Assembly (NCBI GenBank): GCA_020201155.1
Contig: JAIVHI010000170.1
Location: 1-50,843 of the forward strand
From: Loktanella sp.
GTDB taxonomy: Bacteria > Pseudomonadota > Alphaproteobacteria > Rhodobacterales > Rhodobacteraceae
Length of the DNA: 50,843 bases
Direction: 5' to 3'
Each line of letters opens with the position of its first letter. Position 1 is the stretch's first letter. Of this stretch, positions 2,950-46,661 are shown one piece after another. Both the position numbers and the translations under genes were made by a program. Below the pieces are notes generated by a model. The model was not told where the DNA came from. It worked only from the letters and a program-made list of their open reading frames with translations, and did not search any database.

Positions 2950-3738
2950 ATGACAATTTCGATGGACGGCAAACGCGGCCTGATCATGGGGGTCGCCAAC
3001 GAGCGGTCCATCGCCTGGGGCATCGCCAAGGCCATGGCCGAAGCCGGTGCAGAACTCGCGTTCTCCTATCAGGGCGAAGCGTTCGGCAAACGGCTTGAGC
3101 CGCTGGCGCAATCCGTGGGCAGCGACCTGATGGTCGACGTGGACGTGACCGACGACGCTTCGATGGACGCCTGTTTCGCGGCCATCAAGGACAAGTGGGG
3201 GACGCTTGATTTCGTGGTCCACGCCATCGCCTATTCCGACAAGGGCGAATTGACGGGGCGCTTCATCAACACCACCCGCGAGAACTTCAAGAATTCGCTG
3301 TCGATTTCCTGCTACAGCTTCATCGACGTGGCCCGTCGCGCCTCTGAACTGATGCCGAACGGGGGCACCCTGCTGACGCTGACCTATCAGGGCAGCAATG
3401 CGGTGACGCCGAATTACAACGTGATGGGTGTGGCCAAAGCCGCGCTGGAAAGTGCCACGCGCTATCTGGCGAACGATCTGGGACCGCAGGGCATCCGCGT
3501 CAACGCCGTGTCGCCGGGCCCGATGAAGACGCTTGCGGGTGCGGCGATCGGCGGCGCGCGCAAGACCTTCAAACACACCCAGATGAACGCCCCACTGCGC
3601 GAAAATGCCACGCTCGAGGCTGTCGGCGGCACGGCGGTCTACCTTGCATCCGACGCCGGCGCCTTCACGACAGGCGAGATTGTCCATGTCGATGGCGGCT
3701 ATCACATTCTGGGGATGCCACAGGGCGAAAACATCTGA
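2950..3738 (+). CDS. fabI: Enoyl-[ACP] reductase (NADH)
   Basis: This short-chain dehydrogenase reduces trans-2-enoyl-ACP at the last step of each elongation cycle and is the classical triclosan target. The 262-residue product starts with the modified nucleotide-binding motif GLIMGVANERSIAWGIA of FabI rather than the usual GxxxGxG. The catalytic Tyr156-X6-Lys163 pair is present in PNYNVMGVAKAA, and VSPGPMKTLA follows as in FabI proteins. A second possible start at residue 5 (2962) gives MDGKRGLIMG and cannot be excluded. The gene follows fabB with a 4-base gap and is followed by a terminator hairpin. Confidence 0.96.
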   Translation: MTISMDGKRGLIMGVANERSIAWGIAKAMAEAGAELAFSYQGEAFGKRLEPLAQSVGSDLMVDVDVTDDASMDACFAAIKDKWGTLDFVVHAIAYSDKGELTGRFINTTRENFKNSLSISCYSFIDVARRASELMPNGGTLLTLTYQGSNAVTPNYNVMGVAKAALESATRYLANDLGPQGIRVNAVSPGPMKTLAGAAIGGARKTFKHTQMNAPLRENATLEAVGGTAVYLASDAGAFTTGEIVHVDGGYHILGMPQGENI

Positions 3739-12438: not shown

Positions 12439-13777
12439 TTAGACGGGGGCGTTCGTCGATGCAAGGGCCTTCTGCGGATTTTCTGCATTGGACGACGCCG
12501 GGTCAAGCGACAGGTCGCCCTTGGGAAGGACGATGGCAAAGGTCGTCCCCGCAGCCGAGGTTTCACGCAGCTCCAGCCGCCCGCCGTGCCCGCGCACCAG
12601 ATCGGACGCGATCACGAGGCCAAGACCAGAGCCGCCCTTGCTGGCGCGACCCTGAAAGGCCTGAAACAGGTGTTCGCGCGCCTTGGGCGGTAGTCCGGGG
12701 CCGGTATCGGACACGCTAAGCTGCCACATGGCATCGTCTTCCGTGGCATGCAGGCAGATCTCACCGGGCTTTCCGGTCGCCATGATCGCCTGCCGGGCGT
12801 TGCGCACGAGGTTGGTGATCACGCGAAACAGTTGTTCGTCGTCGGCGCGCAGGATCATCGTGGCCGGAACGTCCTCGGAGAAAGAGAGTTCGTAGTCTCC
12901 GGCGGCCAGCCGTTCACTGTCGATCACCTCGCCCACGATCTGGGCAAGATTGACCCTTGTCAGGCGCGGGGCCGGTTCGTCCACCCGACCGAAGGCCAGC
13001 GTCGTTTCGCAGAGGTTCACGGCGCGGGTGATCGAGCCCACGAGCTTGGGGGCCATGCGCTTGACCGTCGGGTCGTCCGACCCTTCGATCCGATCGGTGA
13101 AAAGCTGCGCGCTGGTGAGGATATTGCGCAGGTCGTGACTGACCTTGGCGACGGCGCCGCCCAGTTGCGCGTGCGTCTTCGGGGGCCGCGGCGTAGCGCT
13201 GCATGTTCCGGACCACACTTTTGATCGGGCTGACCAACAGGATGCGCACGGCAAAGAACAGCAAGCTTGCTGTGATGACCGAAATGATGGCTGAAAGTGC
13301 AAGCACGTTCCGTCCGTACTCCAGCATCGCGGCGCGCAATGGCGCCTCACGCATTGTGACTTCGATCAGAATCCCGCCCCCGCGCACGGGATTGCCGATC
13401 ACGCGGATGACATTTTCATCGGTATGAAAAAGAGTGCCGAGCGCATCACCGATGAGGGTCATGCCCGACGGGTCGCGCATGTCGTAGGTCGCGTCGATCG
13501 GCTGGGGGATCGGCGATGACAGTGCCAGTTGCCGTATCTCATCGCGCAACAGGACGACGTTATAGACATCCACATTCCGGAGCAGTTCGGCTTCGAGCGC
13601 GGGCGCAAGCATCTCGTCCGCTTCCAGCGCAAGCGATGCGATCTGCGCCCGTTCGAGCCGATCAAGAAGGTAGTCCTGCCGGAACCGCGCCACCGAAGGC
13701 ACGAAAATGAACACCTCGGCCAGCATCACGAAGATGACGGTCAAAATCAGGAAACGTCCCGATAGGGTGTTTAGCAT
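12439..13777 (-). pseudogene. Sensor histidine kinase, disrupted by internal deletion and frameshift
   Basis: The N-terminal frame (from ATG at 13777) encodes a membrane helix (about 7-29), a periplasmic sensor region, a second helix (about 157-178) and the start of a HAMP domain (VSPIKSVVRNMQRYAAAPEDA). Near 13165-13180 it runs out of frame. The C-terminal half continues in another frame: QLGGAVAKVSHDLRN with the phospho-acceptor His, then N, G1 and G2 boxes (NLVRNARQAI, DTGPGLPP, GGSGLGLVIA). From memory of the family, about 40 residues (end of HAMP and the linker) are absent as well, so this is a deletion and not one lost base. The gene follows the FAD oxidoreductase by 17 bases in one operon. 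No response regulator is adjacent. A sequencing or assembly fault is the alternative. Confidence 0.82.
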
Positions 13778-13794: not shown

Positions 13795-15213
13795 CTAGGG
13801 TATCCATTTCTGGACGAAACGGACAGCCGTCTTGACCAGATTGCTCTCGAATAACTTAGGGCTGAAATAGGCTCCTGCCGCTCTTTTGTTGATTTCTCCG
13901 ATAGTGGGGTAAGGCAAGACCGCATTCGAGATCGCAGACATCTTGAGCCCGTTGGCGATGGCCAGACACCAGACGCCGATCAATTCGCCTGCCATGGGAC
14001 CGACGATGGACGCGCCGACGGGCTTTCCCCCGACCACCATGACCTTGATGAAGCCTTTCGTCTTGCGCTCGGCAATCGCCCTGTCGTTGTCATCGAACGC
14101 GGCCCGCACGACCGTGAGCTTTTCGCGGTGTTTCTTGCGGGCCTGCGCTTCGGTCAGGCCGACCTGTGCAAGCTCGGGCTGTGTGTAGCTGCACCACGGG
14201 ATGTGGTCGGTCCTTGCCTTGGCGGGCAAGGCCAAGGCAAGCGCACGCACCAGCACACCGCCGTGGTATCCCGCGACATGGGTGAACTGCAGCCCACCCG
14301 CCACGTCACCTGCCGCGTAGACACGCTTGTTCGTCGTTGACCGCAGCTTGTCGTCAACCTTCAGCCCACGCCTGTCATGGGCCACGTTGCCTGCGTCCAG
14401 ATCGAGCCTTTCGGTATTCACCTTGCGGCCCACTGCCATCAACATGTGCGATCCGGTAAAATCGCCCTTGGGCGTGTGAACCGTGACAGTGCCCTTGCCG
14501 CCCGAAATCCGTTCGGCCTTGGCCTCTTCCACGATCTCGACACCTTCGTCGCGCAGCGTGTCCAGAACGACCGCCGTCAGTTCGGGGTCGTCGTTGCCCA
14601 GAGCCTTGGCGCCCTCGATCACCGTCACCTTGCAACCCAAACGCCGGTGCGCCTGCGCCATTTCCATACCGATGGGACCACCGCCGACGATTAGCAGGTG
14701 ATCCGGCTTTTCACGCAGCTCGAAGATGGTTTCGTTAGTGAAAACTTCGACATCCTCGATCCCCTCGATGGGCGGCACCAGCGGGCTGGACCCCGTCGCG
14801 ACGACAAAGCGCCGGGCTTCGATCACGGTATCGCCGGCCTGCACCTCGGTTTCGCTGATGAAACGCGCGAAGTCGCGGATGACGGTGCAGCCAAGCGCTT
14901 CGAACCGGTCCTGGCTGTCCACGGGGGCGATCGTTTCGATGACTTGGGCGACATGATCCTTGGCGGCTGCATAATCGACCTTTGGCCGCACCTCCTCGAT
15001 CCCGAAGGCGGGGTTCTCAAGCCCGGCCTGGGCATGCTTTGCACTGGCAATCAGGGCCTTGGACGGAACGCAGCCATAATTCAGGCAGTCGCCGCCCATC
15101 TTGTGCCCTTCGATCAGCACCACCTTGGCGCCCATCTGCACAGCCCCCGCCGCGACCGAAAGCCCGCCCGATCCCGCTCCGATCACGCAGATATCCGTCT
15201 TTATTCGTTTCAT
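13795..15213 (-). CDS. FAD-dependent disulfide oxidoreductase (mercuric reductase/dihydrolipoyl dehydrogenase-like)
   Basis: A 472-residue flavoprotein of the pyridine nucleotide-disulfide oxidoreductase class I. It has the FAD motif GAGSGG (12-17), redox pair Cys43/Cys48 in GGDCLNYGCVPSKA, a NAD(P)H-binding GGGPIGMEMA, the second FAD motif YAAGDVAGG and the C-terminal dimerisation domain. The catalytic HPT of lipoamide dehydrogenase is replaced: LPYPTIGE has Tyr435 for His while Glu440 remains. Lipoamide dehydrogenase activity is therefore doubtful. The start at 15213 lies one base after the stop of the TVP38 gene; the open frame beyond it overlaps that gene. Tight linkage to a TVP38 membrane protein suggests a joint role, probably redox or membrane-quinone related, but this is inference. 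Confidence 0.88.
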   Translation of the reverse strand: MKRIKTDICVIGAGSGGLSVAAGAVQMGAKVVLIEGHKMGGDCLNYGCVPSKALIASAKHAQAGLENPAFGIEEVRPKVDYAAAKDHVAQVIETIAPVDSQDRFEALGCTVIRDFARFISETEVQAGDTVIEARRFVVATGSSPLVPPIEGIEDVEVFTNETIFELREKPDHLLIVGGGPIGMEMAQAHRRLGCKVTVIEGAKALGNDDPELTAVVLDTLRDEGVEIVEEAKAERISGGKGTVTVHTPKGDFTGSHMLMAVGRKVNTERLDLDAGNVAHDRRGLKVDDKLRSTTNKRVYAAGDVAGGLQFTHVAGYHGGVLVRALALALPAKARTDHIPWCSYTQPELAQVGLTEAQARKKHREKLTVVRAAFDDNDRAIAERKTKGFIKVMVVGGKPVGASIVGPMAGELIGVWCLAIANGLKMSAISNAVLPYPTIGEINKRAAGAYFSPKLFESNLVKTAVRFVQKWIP

Positions 15214-15214
15214 A

Positions 15215-15964
15215 TCAGATGCCTTTCCTGCCGCGCACGGCCTTGAGGACGAGGGGAATCGCTGCCAGCACACAAAGCCCCAGCAGCGGCAGCAGAAACT
15301 GCGGCTGGAAGATGATGCCCAGATCAGGGCTTTCGCCCCGGTCAAAGACCTGCCCCAGCCCCGCGCCGACGCTCGTATAGACAATGGCACCGGGCATGAT
15401 GCCAAAGAAGGTCGAGACTGCAAACCGGTGCAACGGCACGCCCACCAGCGCCGGCACGAGGTTGGCCACGAAAAAGGGAACCGCGGGCACCAGCCGGATC
15501 AAAAACAGCATCGACCACTGGCTTTGTTCGTCGTCGATCTGGGACTTGAGCTTCTTGACCGTCCCGTCCGAGGCATCCATCCGGGCAGAGAGCGCATCGC
15601 CAAGCCCCCAACGCGCCGCAAGGAACAGGGCCATGGCCCCAAGGGTCGCCCCGGCTACGTTGAAGATCGCACCGGGCAGGAATGGAAAGACCGCAGGCAC
15701 GGACGCAAAGAGAAACCCGCCCGTCAAGGTGGCGATGGTCGCGCCCGGCAGGCTGAAGGCCACGATCGCGGCATAGCCGGCGATGAAAGCCATGACCGTC
15801 AGGACGTAATTGTCGTCCCGAAACGCAAGCAACCGGTCCCGGTTGGCGCTGAGCGTGTCGAAGGTCAGGTAATCGCGCAGGAAAAAGAAGCCCAAAACGG
15901 CAACCACTGCGATGACGATAAGCGGAAGCCGCTTGGTGACGGGATTCGTGGTGCTGTCGGACAT
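15215..15964 (-). CDS. TVP38/TMEM64 (SNARE-associated, DedA-superfamily) membrane protein
   Basis: A 249-residue integral membrane protein. An N-terminal helix (about 13-30) is followed by the VTT/SNARE-associated core with the re-entrant-loop type motif FPFLPGAIFNVAGATLGAMA and a second half-repeat RLVPAVPFFVANLVPALVGV. DedA-superfamily proteins are implicated in lipid scrambling and membrane homeostasis. It is the first gene of a three-gene unit with the FAD oxidoreductase (one-base gap) and the broken histidine kinase. Pfam-style fusions of these first two domains are known to me from other bacteria, supporting a functional pair. Confidence 0.88.
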   Translation of the reverse strand: MSDSTTNPVTKRLPLIVIAVVAVLGFFFLRDYLTFDTLSANRDRLLAFRDDNYVLTVMAFIAGYAAIVAFSLPGATIATLTGGFLFASVPAVFPFLPGAIFNVAGATLGAMALFLAARWGLGDALSARMDASDGTVKKLKSQIDDEQSQWSMLFLIRLVPAVPFFVANLVPALVGVPLHRFAVSTFFGIMPGAIVYTSVGAGLGQVFDRGESPDLGIIFQPQFLLPLLGLCVLAAIPLVLKAVRGRKGI

Positions 15965-16373: not shown

Positions 16374-16400
16374 GCCATTCCCTTCGGGGATGACCAGAAC

Positions 16401-20593: not shown

Positions 20594-21319
20594 ATGACCC
20601 GCGACTGGACCACCACGGCCCGCACCCTGTCGGAAGCCTTGCCCTATATGCAGCGCTACAACGGGGCCACCGTCGTCATCAAGCTGGGCGGCCACGCGAT
20701 GGGCAGCCACGAGGGTATGCAAAGCTTTGCCCGCGACGTGGTCCTGATGCGGCAGGTCGGCATGAATCCCGTCGTCGTCCACGGTGGTGGACCGATGATC
20801 AACCAGCTTCTGGACAAGCTGGGGATCGTCAGCAACTTCGTGAACGGCAAGCGGGTCACGGACGCCGCGACGATGGAAGTCGTCGAAATGGTCCTGTCGG
20901 GGCAGGTGAACAACCGTCTGGTGCAGGCGATTTCCGATCAGGGCGGCAAGGCCGTGGGTCTGTCGGGCAAGGACGCGAACCTGATCCACTGCGAACCGAC
21001 CGACCCCGCTCTCGGGCTGGTCGGCACACCGACGCAGATCGACACGACGATCCTGCGCGACCTGTCCGACGCCAAGGCCATTCCGGTGATCGCCCCGCTT
21101 GGCATGGGCGCGAACGGCGAGACCTACAACATGAACGGCGACACCGCAGCCGGCGCGATTGCAGGCGCGCTTCGGGCCGACCGCCTGCTTTTGCTGACCG
21201 ATGTGCCCGGCGTGCTGGACAAGGAAAAGAACATCCTTACCGAAATCGACGTGGGCCAAGTGCCCGACCTGATCGCCGCTATGCACACCTTTCGGAATTG
21301 CTTGAACCGCTGGCCCTGA
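20594..21319 (+). pseudogene. argB: Acetylglutamate kinase, C-terminally truncated
   Basis: ArgB phosphorylates N-acetylglutamate in arginine biosynthesis. Residues 1-227 are normal: [10 protein letters not shown] with Lys30, [10 protein letters not shown] (62-70), and [20 protein letters not shown]. After [11 protein letters not shown] the frame enters unrelated sequence ([13 protein letters not shown]) and stops. The expected last 50 or so residues, including the GGMIPK segment with the ATP-site lysine that stabilises the transition state, are absent. The following gene has lost its own start, so the break is a deletion spanning the argB 3' end and the spacer. The start at 20594 is chosen for its GAGGA site and family N-terminus; ATGs at 20576 and 20579 are alternatives. 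Enzyme activity is unlikely. Confidence 0.85.
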
Positions 21320-21885
21320 CCGTGTTGGGCCACACCAGCGATGGGCCGCAAACGCTGGCGTTGATCGGCCCGGACGAGCCCGCCTTCTGGGACCGGTTCA
21401 CGGACAGCCCCGAGTATCGCGACGGGGAAGCTGACCCGATGAACCGTTGGTCAAGGCGGGTCTTGACCGACATCGCCACGCAGGTGGAGGGAGAAGCGGT
21501 CTTCCCCTTCGGTGGGCCGCCTTTTGAACCGTTTCAAAGCTGGGCACTTGCAAGTGGACAGTTCTGGACTTCGCCAATCGGGTTCCTTGTCCATCAAACG
21601 CGCGGACTTTTCGTATCGTTCAGGGGGGCGATCCGCTTGCCGGTGGCGCGGCCCGCGCCTGTTGGTACGTCCCCTTGTCCGGACTGCCCGGCCCCTTGCG
21701 CTGTGGCCTGCCCGGTTGACGCCTTTCGTCACGGATATGATGTTGCGGCCTGCAAGGCGCATATCGCTACACCCGCAGGGCGGGACTGCCTGACGCGGGG
21801 TTGCCGTGCACGACGGGCCTGCCCTGTCGGTCAGGGCCTACGCCTGCCGGACCACGCCCGATTTCACATGGAGGCTTTTGCCTGA
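21298..21885 (+). CDS. Ferredoxin-like Fe-S protein, 5' end probably lost
   Basis: A protein of up to 195 residues with [19 protein letters not shown] and VFPFGGPPF near the start, and cysteine-rich segments [17 protein letters not shown] and [13 protein letters not shown] that resemble Fe-S cluster sites. I know it only as a ferredoxin-like protein found beside argB in Rhodobacteraceae; its reaction is unknown. The only usable start in frame is TTG 21298, without a ribosome-binding site; upstream the frame is open into argB. The first natural codons seem to have been removed with the argB 3' end. It overlaps the next gene by one base (TGATG). Confidence 0.72.
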
Positions 21886-24500: not shown

Positions 24501-25718
24501 TCAGCGCTCCTGCAGCTTCTTGGAATTGTTGTAGATGTTCATCAGGAACGAGATGATCAGCGACAGACCCAGATAGAACAGCCCCAGCAAAAGCATGCAT
24601 TCCAGGGCACGTCCTGTCTGGTTCAGCGTGATGCCGCCCAAGGTGGCGCGCACGTCGGGATACCCCACGGCAATGGCCAGTGACGAGTTCTTGCTCAGGT
24701 TCAGATACTGCGATGTCATCGGCGGGATGATGACCCGAAGCGCCTGCGGCAGGATCACAAGGTTCATCGTGCGGTTCGGGCGCATCCCCAAGGCGAAAGA
24801 CGCTTCGGATTGCCCCTTCGATACCGAAAGGATGCCAGCTCGGACGATCTCGGTGATGAATGCGCCGGTATAGAGAGACAGGGCCAGCCAAAGTGCGGTC
24901 AGCGGGTTGGATATCTGGGTGCCGCCCTGAAAGTTGAACCCGCCGAGTTCCGGATAGTCGAGACCGATGGGCCGACCGAGGATGAAGTACATCAGGATGG
25001 TGGGGACAATGGCGATCAGCAGCGCCGGCCACACCATCGGCAAAAGCCGGCCCGTGTCGAACAGCACCTTCTTGGCGTAGGACCGGTAAACGAAGGCCCC
25101 GACGATCGAGAGAACGAAGATCGCCAGAAGGAACACCGCATTGGGGCCCCAGACGGGCGCGGGTATATAGACACCGCGGTTGGTGATCGCAAAGGCATCG
25201 AAAATCATCGAAGCCGCCGCGGTGCCATCCTCGGCAACCCGGAAATCGCGCGGCTGCGGCGTGCCTTCGGTCATCAGCGCATAGATCGCGACGATCCACA
25301 GCAAGAGTGGCACATTGCGAAAGCCTTCGACGTAGACGGCCATCAACTTGCGAACGATCCAGTTCTTGGACAGCCGCAGGACGCCACCGATCACACCGAG
25401 GATCGTGGCAAGCACGATCCCGAGGAAGGCGACGAGAAGGGTGTTCAGGATGCCGACGTAGGCGGCACGCAGGTGCGTATCAGCACTGGTGAACGGAATG
25501 AGGGTCGTGCCGATATCGTATCCGGCACGGTTGAACAGAAAGGAGAAGTTCGGCGTCAGACCCAGTGCAGCAAGATTTTGCAGCAGATTGGCTATAAGCC
25601 ACCAGATCCCGGCGGCGACAAGTGCCAGCGTGATGAACTGAATTGTTATGGAACGATAGCGCGTGTCGTAGATAAGTTGGCTCAGACGAAAGCCGTCCGA
25701 CTTCGGACTGTCGGTCAT
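24501..25718 (-). CDS. aapQ: General L-amino acid ABC transporter, permease AapQ
   Basis: A 405-residue permease that pairs with AapM. It contains RNVPLLLWI and the EAA-type loop SEASFALGMRPNRTMNLVIL. The coding sequence itself looks intact from MTDSPKSDGF onward. However, the bases just before its ATG are aapJ codons (LARGL) without any purine-rich ribosome-binding site: the normal aapJ-aapQ spacer is missing. Its expression may depend on ribosomes arriving in the aapJ frame, which now runs across this start. Confidence 0.93.
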   Translation of the reverse strand: MTDSPKSDGFRLSQLIYDTRYRSITIQFITLALVAAGIWWLIANLLQNLAALGLTPNFSFLFNRAGYDIGTTLIPFTSADTHLRAAYVGILNTLLVAFLGIVLATILGVIGGVLRLSKNWIVRKLMAVYVEGFRNVPLLLWIVAIYALMTEGTPQPRDFRVAEDGTAAASMIFDAFAITNRGVYIPAPVWGPNAVFLLAIFVLSIVGAFVYRSYAKKVLFDTGRLLPMVWPALLIAIVPTILMYFILGRPIGLDYPELGGFNFQGGTQISNPLTALWLALSLYTGAFITEIVRAGILSVSKGQSEASFALGMRPNRTMNLVILPQALRVIIPPMTSQYLNLSKNSSLAIAVGYPDVRATLGGITLNQTGRALECMLLLGLFYLGLSLIISFLMNIYNNSKKLQER

Positions 25719-46109: not shown

Positions 46110-46661
46110 ATGGCCGCAAGCGAACGTGACGACCCGAAGACGCTCGTCAGCACCGATTGGCTGGCAGCGCATCTGAAAGACCCTGACCTGCGTATCCTCG
46201 ACGCCAGCTGGCACATGCCGGCAGAGGGGCGCGATGCCCGGGCGGAGTACGCGCAAAGTCATATTCCGGGTGCGCGGTTTTTCGATATCGACGACATTTC
46301 GGATGCCCGGTCAGAGATGCCGCATATGGCGCCTTCGACCGAGAAGTTCATGTCCCGGATGCGCAAGATGGGCGTCGGCGACGGCCATCAAGTCGTGGTG
46401 TATGACAGCAAGGGGCTGTTTTCAGCCGCCCGCGTCTGGTGGCTGTTTCGCCTGATGGGCAAGACGGACGGCTTGCGTGCCGCCTTCGCGCCTGCGGATC
46501 TGACAAAGCCCGCGATCACGACCTGCGGATCGGGCATCACCGCCGCGATCCTGGCCTTGGCCCTGACCCGGATCGGCAAGACCGATTGGTCGCTTTATGA
46601 CGGATCGTGGTCCGAATGGGGCATGTACGACGATCTTCCCATCGCAACTGGAAACACCTGA
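46110..46661 (+). pseudogene. sseA: 3-mercaptopyruvate sulfurtransferase, internally deleted in frame
   Basis: SseA has two rhodanese domains and about 280 residues. Here only 183 remain. Residues 1-120 are a normal N-terminal domain (RILDASWHMPAEGRDA, HIPGARFFDID, VVVYDSKGLFSAARVWWLFR). After LMGKTD the sequence jumps to GLRAAFAPADLTKPAITTCG, which belongs to the C-terminal half; the active-site Cys139 in CGSGIT and the ending YDGSWSEWGMYDDLP are kept. About 100 residues, including the start of the catalytic domain, are missing, with the frame preserved. The domain could not fold normally, so activity is unlikely. Its stop overlaps the aminotransferase start by one base (TGATG). Confidence 0.82.

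Follow-up and report, generated by a model that had tools for sequence, protein, structure and literature searches.

Local assembly errors and gaps are described, in those parts of a study of draft and metagenome assemblies that concern them (PMC7111523), as leaving public databases with protein-coding genes that are incomplete or wrong, and unsupported joins are there said to be recognisable by missing read support. On the organism considered here the literature search, at the level of its results, returned nothing. The other described system that bears on the locus is the acetylglutamate kinase ArgB of the family, represented by the model TIGR00761.

The argB gene in the family and in the window

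Among relatives, 109 argB loci were compared, copies from the organism itself being excluded. Their ArgB products are 281-293 aa long, with the single exception of one of 251 aa that is ended by a contig end. The motif GGMIPK can be read in the argB frame at 108 of these 109 loci; in the exception, L057, two undetermined bases (NN) around position 3190, just 5′ of the motif, put GGMIPK into the next frame, a smaller sequence flaw. The same motif, in the form GGM-I/L-PK, is conserved in three solved acetylglutamate kinases among the alignments listed. An argB-type match was found in 294 of 295 sampled family genomes, above the model cut-off in 286, and all of the matches listed begin at profile position 1 or 2 and run to 231. 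A short ArgB as a family trait was considered and rejected, no such form being found in the 109 loci save in the contig end or NN cases, and a 144-residue argB match in G019, taken for a second truncated case, proved merely to stop at a contig end. In the 295-genome sample, TIGR00761 found nothing in G117 (100% complete, about 20 contigs) and gave weak matches only in G286 and G288 (95% and 99% complete); argB may be genuinely absent from these three members of the family.

The window, that is, the whole stretch of 50,843 nucleotides analysed here, was located on contig C221 (56,495 bases) of the organism's own draft genome (G000; 342 contigs totalling 3,689,161 bases, with an estimated completeness of 91.48% and a contamination of 2.35%). 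Its argB frame, on the plus strand, starts at 20594 and ends with a TGA at 21317-21319, giving a product of 241 aa. Residues 1-228 (20594..21277) are as conserved as those of the relatives, with a top identity of 76% in the best 80 of 546 candidate loci, and they resemble family ArgB in that they match TIGR00761 above its cut-off (219.5 bits). The match covers profile positions 1-203 of 231 only, which comprise the N-terminal part and the central kinase domain. The window assembly differs from family ArgB in being without the last ~55 residues, including GGMIPK: homology stops at residue 228 and is followed by an out-of-frame tail of 13 unrelated codons plus TGA (21278..21319), read from the sequence of the downstream gene. 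An earlier note on this DNA had described ArgB as conserved to residue 227, then 13 unrelated codons and a stop, with GGMIPK in the lost part. The sharp end, the unrelated tail and the loss of the motif all hold; the exact residue was one short.

The junction and the downstream gene

Downstream of argB, on the same strand, lies the remainder of a gene (21289..21885) whose product is, by eye, Cys-rich and of Fe-S type, and whose own start codon is absent. Its frame extends open back into argB with no ATG, as the earlier note had said; the nearest possible starts are a TTG at 21298 and a GTG at 21322, and similarity to the relatives sets in at about 21289. The gene is found in 96 of the 109 relative argB loci, lying at most 100 bases from the argB stop in 44 of these, overlapping that stop in 11 and standing more than 400 bases off in 41. 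It gave no Pfam or NCBIfam match, so that this conserved neighbour of argB in the family is one without a model in either collection.

The junction itself was placed at 21271..21289. In L007, the nearest of the retrieved relatives in which the gene follows argB directly (76% identity in argB, 61.5% in the downstream gene), 184 bases separate the two protein homology blocks, as against 14 in the window; DNA alignment put the missing stretch at 179 bases against L007 and 180 against L128, with the flanks abutting where it should lie. One missing stretch of ~170-180 bases at about 21278, comprising the argB C-terminus, the stop codon and the start of the next gene, therefore accounts for both the truncated argB and the headless gene behind it. 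The single event across the gene boundary that had been proposed for this locus is borne out as a single missing stretch; as a genomic deletion it is not, since the same kind of loss occurs in rpoB, dnaE and other genes (see below).

Could the locus as assembled make a working product, either a shortened ArgB or a frame-shifted ArgB/Fe-S fusion? Both frames are open across the join, and re-initiation is conceivable at the GTG at 21322, 2 bases past the argB stop. Against this, some 55 residues of the kinase domain are gone, with a motif that all but one of the relatives keep in frame, and an equally short ArgB occurs in none of the 109 relative loci except at a contig end. We therefore give next to no credence to a functional product of this kind. 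No slippery site for a programmed frameshift at argB was seen by eye.

A search of the draft genome for a second acetylglutamate kinase, which the earlier note had called for, found five amino-acid kinase genes. Just one of them, that of the window, passes the argB cut-off; the other four match PF00696 nearly end to end. No second argB was found in the draft, at its 91.48% completeness. The lost C-terminus was likewise sought elsewhere in the draft with the last 68 residues of the L007 protein, and gave two hits, the best with an E value of 0.31, neither convincing.

Losses elsewhere in the assembly

The genes argJ, argC and argH were examined to ask whether the arginine pathway is decaying, and rpoB and the replicative polymerase gene dnaE were chosen before their state was known. 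Four of these five genes, picked blind to their state, are damaged (argJ, argC, rpoB and dnaE), and argH is whole. In argJ, on contig C145, the profile is matched from 7 to 242 and then, 2 bases on and in another frame, from 322 to 405, with 221 bases missing; from argC, on C333, 99 bases are missing without a change of frame. Both losses were seen against four relatives. The rpoB gene (contig C92, locus L176) is split into two pieces joined at 14299, with 181 bases missing and the frame changed, and the contig then ends inside the gene at 15872; neither the remainder of rpoB nor a second copy was found in the assembly. Its pieces are 86-94% identical to relatives, and in G049, G003, G055 and G039 rpoB is a single open frame of 1381-1392 aa. 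From the main dnaE, on C111, an in-frame stretch of 246-258 bases is missing by comparison with three relatives, and the dnaE genes of G003, G049 and G055 match the profile end to end (1-1022); a second dnaE-type gene of the organism, on C201, is whole. Two further genes, named by eye, are also affected: dnaJ on C145, with 575-587 bases missing and the frame changed against four relatives, and an oxidoreductase gene on C333, with 165 bases missing in frame.

Within its 50.8 kb the window holds four such joins, in argB, a sensor kinase gene, a transporter gene and sseA. The second lies at 13160..13184 in a minus-strand gene named by eye as a sensor histidine kinase, where 110 bases are missing and the frame is changed; the loss, at about 13172, measures 107-110 bases against three relatives (G039, G003 and G055) and 110 against L169 and L135. 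The third, at 25678..25718, has cost an amino-acid ABC transporter the end of its binding-protein gene, together with the spacer that precedes the permease gene (gene names assigned by eye); 190 bases are missing at about 25690 against L128 and 210 against L136, and C-terminal residues are absent. The fourth, at 46455..46475, was found as a split NCBIfam match to 3-mercaptopyruvate sulfurtransferase (sseA), from which ~100 codons are missing in frame; the loss was judged against solved structures only, window residues 122 and 124 abutting, at about 46464, at residues 111 and 215 of E. coli SseA (1urh_A). Below 12 kb and above 36 kb the window was checked for joins by family profiles only, so that several outer open reading frames with no family match fall outside the check. 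A suspected break at 30.5-33.1 kb proved to be intact neighbouring genes, a ribosomal-protein and rpoA stretch.

As a control, the window and contigs C145 and C333 were compared with the matching regions of five relatives, the relatives' genes serving as queries. Internal losses of at least 90 bases were found in 17 of 145 gene comparisons of the organism with relatives (six sites) and in 0 of 629 of relatives with one another, a contrast favoured by the use as queries of genes matched in another relative, and with the 17 of 145 inflated by the inclusion of C145 and C333, contigs on which the breaks in argJ and argC had been found beforehand. One of the six sites, at window position 16390, is backed by one relative only: comparison with G003 points to a candidate loss of ~113 bases, close to a short gene that lies upstream of 16401. 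With a looser limit of at least 24 bases, 0-3 losses were counted per comparison among relatives and 5-10 in the organism's genome. Losses at gene ends give a weak contrast, with 8 of 125 in the organism (five being argB itself and one the next gene) versus 7 of 366 among relatives.

The losses share several traits. Each is of nearly equal length when measured against different relatives, and in the DNA alignments the organism's sequence jumps, by eye, between two registers of the relative in the space of ~10 bases, with no long shared repeat. There were no N bases in the 17 own loci checked (16 and L184), and no internal stops within the matches from the searches of the organism's own argB-type, argJ, argC, rpoB and dnaE genes. 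At the eight gene-internal sites (rpoB, dnaE, dnaJ, argJ, argC, sensor kinase, oxidoreductase and sseA) four losses are in frame and four are not, and therefore the reading frame is not protected.

Origin of the argB join

Three readings that take the losses as biological were weighed. Targeted decay of arginine synthesis, suggested by the damage to argJ and argC, was rejected, the same scar being present in rpoB, dnaE, dnaJ and sseA. A real genome-wide decay through numerous deletions of 100-600 bases, such as a recently established symbiont undergoes, would agree with losses scattered over unrelated genes and with the frame changes at half of the gene-internal sites. It would also demand that rpoB be broken with no second copy found, which no living cell tolerates, and it accords badly with the conservation of the remaining pieces, of which those of rpoB are an example, and with matches that are free of internal stops; we regard it as exceedingly improbable. 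The third reading is a real and very recent deletion across the argB boundary that left an arginine auxotroph, the other breaks being separate errors. The sharp join, the full conservation of what remains of argB and the failure to find another argB all speak for it. Nevertheless, the same scar in rpoB, dnaE, dnaJ and others, an argH that is whole, and the argB-type matches in nearly all of the sampled family genomes make it very unlikely. Equally hard to credit is what would follow from such a deletion, namely a strain or subpopulation that relies on an external supply of arginine and keeps the next gene in use through re-initiation at the GTG at 21322.

The recurrence of this loss in unrelated and essential genes makes an assembly error the best reading of the argB join. 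No cell could survive with an rpoB damaged in this way as its sole copy. With rpoB, dnaE, dnaJ and others carrying the same scar, the argB join therefore needs no separate cause. From these sequence comparisons we consider it highly probable that the cut argB and the headless gene next to it are the two sides of one collapsed assembly gap and do not reflect a real mutation. On this explanation ~170-180 bases, encoding the last ~55 residues of ArgB with its stop and the initial codons of the gene that follows, would have been dropped from the draft, and the flanks of the unassembled gap would have been joined directly, most likely when runs of N were stripped out or scaffold gaps closed; such closure would have taken place at many points in the draft. 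We infer that the joins arose by gap removal rather than by another misjoining step, and that the missing bases, and hence a normal argB, are almost certainly present in the organism.

The need for arginine predicted by the earlier note is accordingly not supported, the same losses being present in unrelated and essential genes; there is no arginine requirement to infer, and a false claim of auxotrophy is averted. More useful than the outcome for argB itself is the warning that it gives for the whole assembly, in which the statistics of completeness and contamination (91.48% and 2.35%) failed to reveal the joins. With four like joins in a 50.8-kb window, cut or fused genes, missing starts and metabolic gaps in this draft therefore need read support.

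In comparison with the described cases, the losses in this genome fit the errors of draft and metagenome assemblies as presented in the relevant parts of PMC7111523. Those parts treat gaps of N and unsupported sequence, whereas in this genome the loci checked hold no N, the flanks abut directly and the rate of such joins is high.
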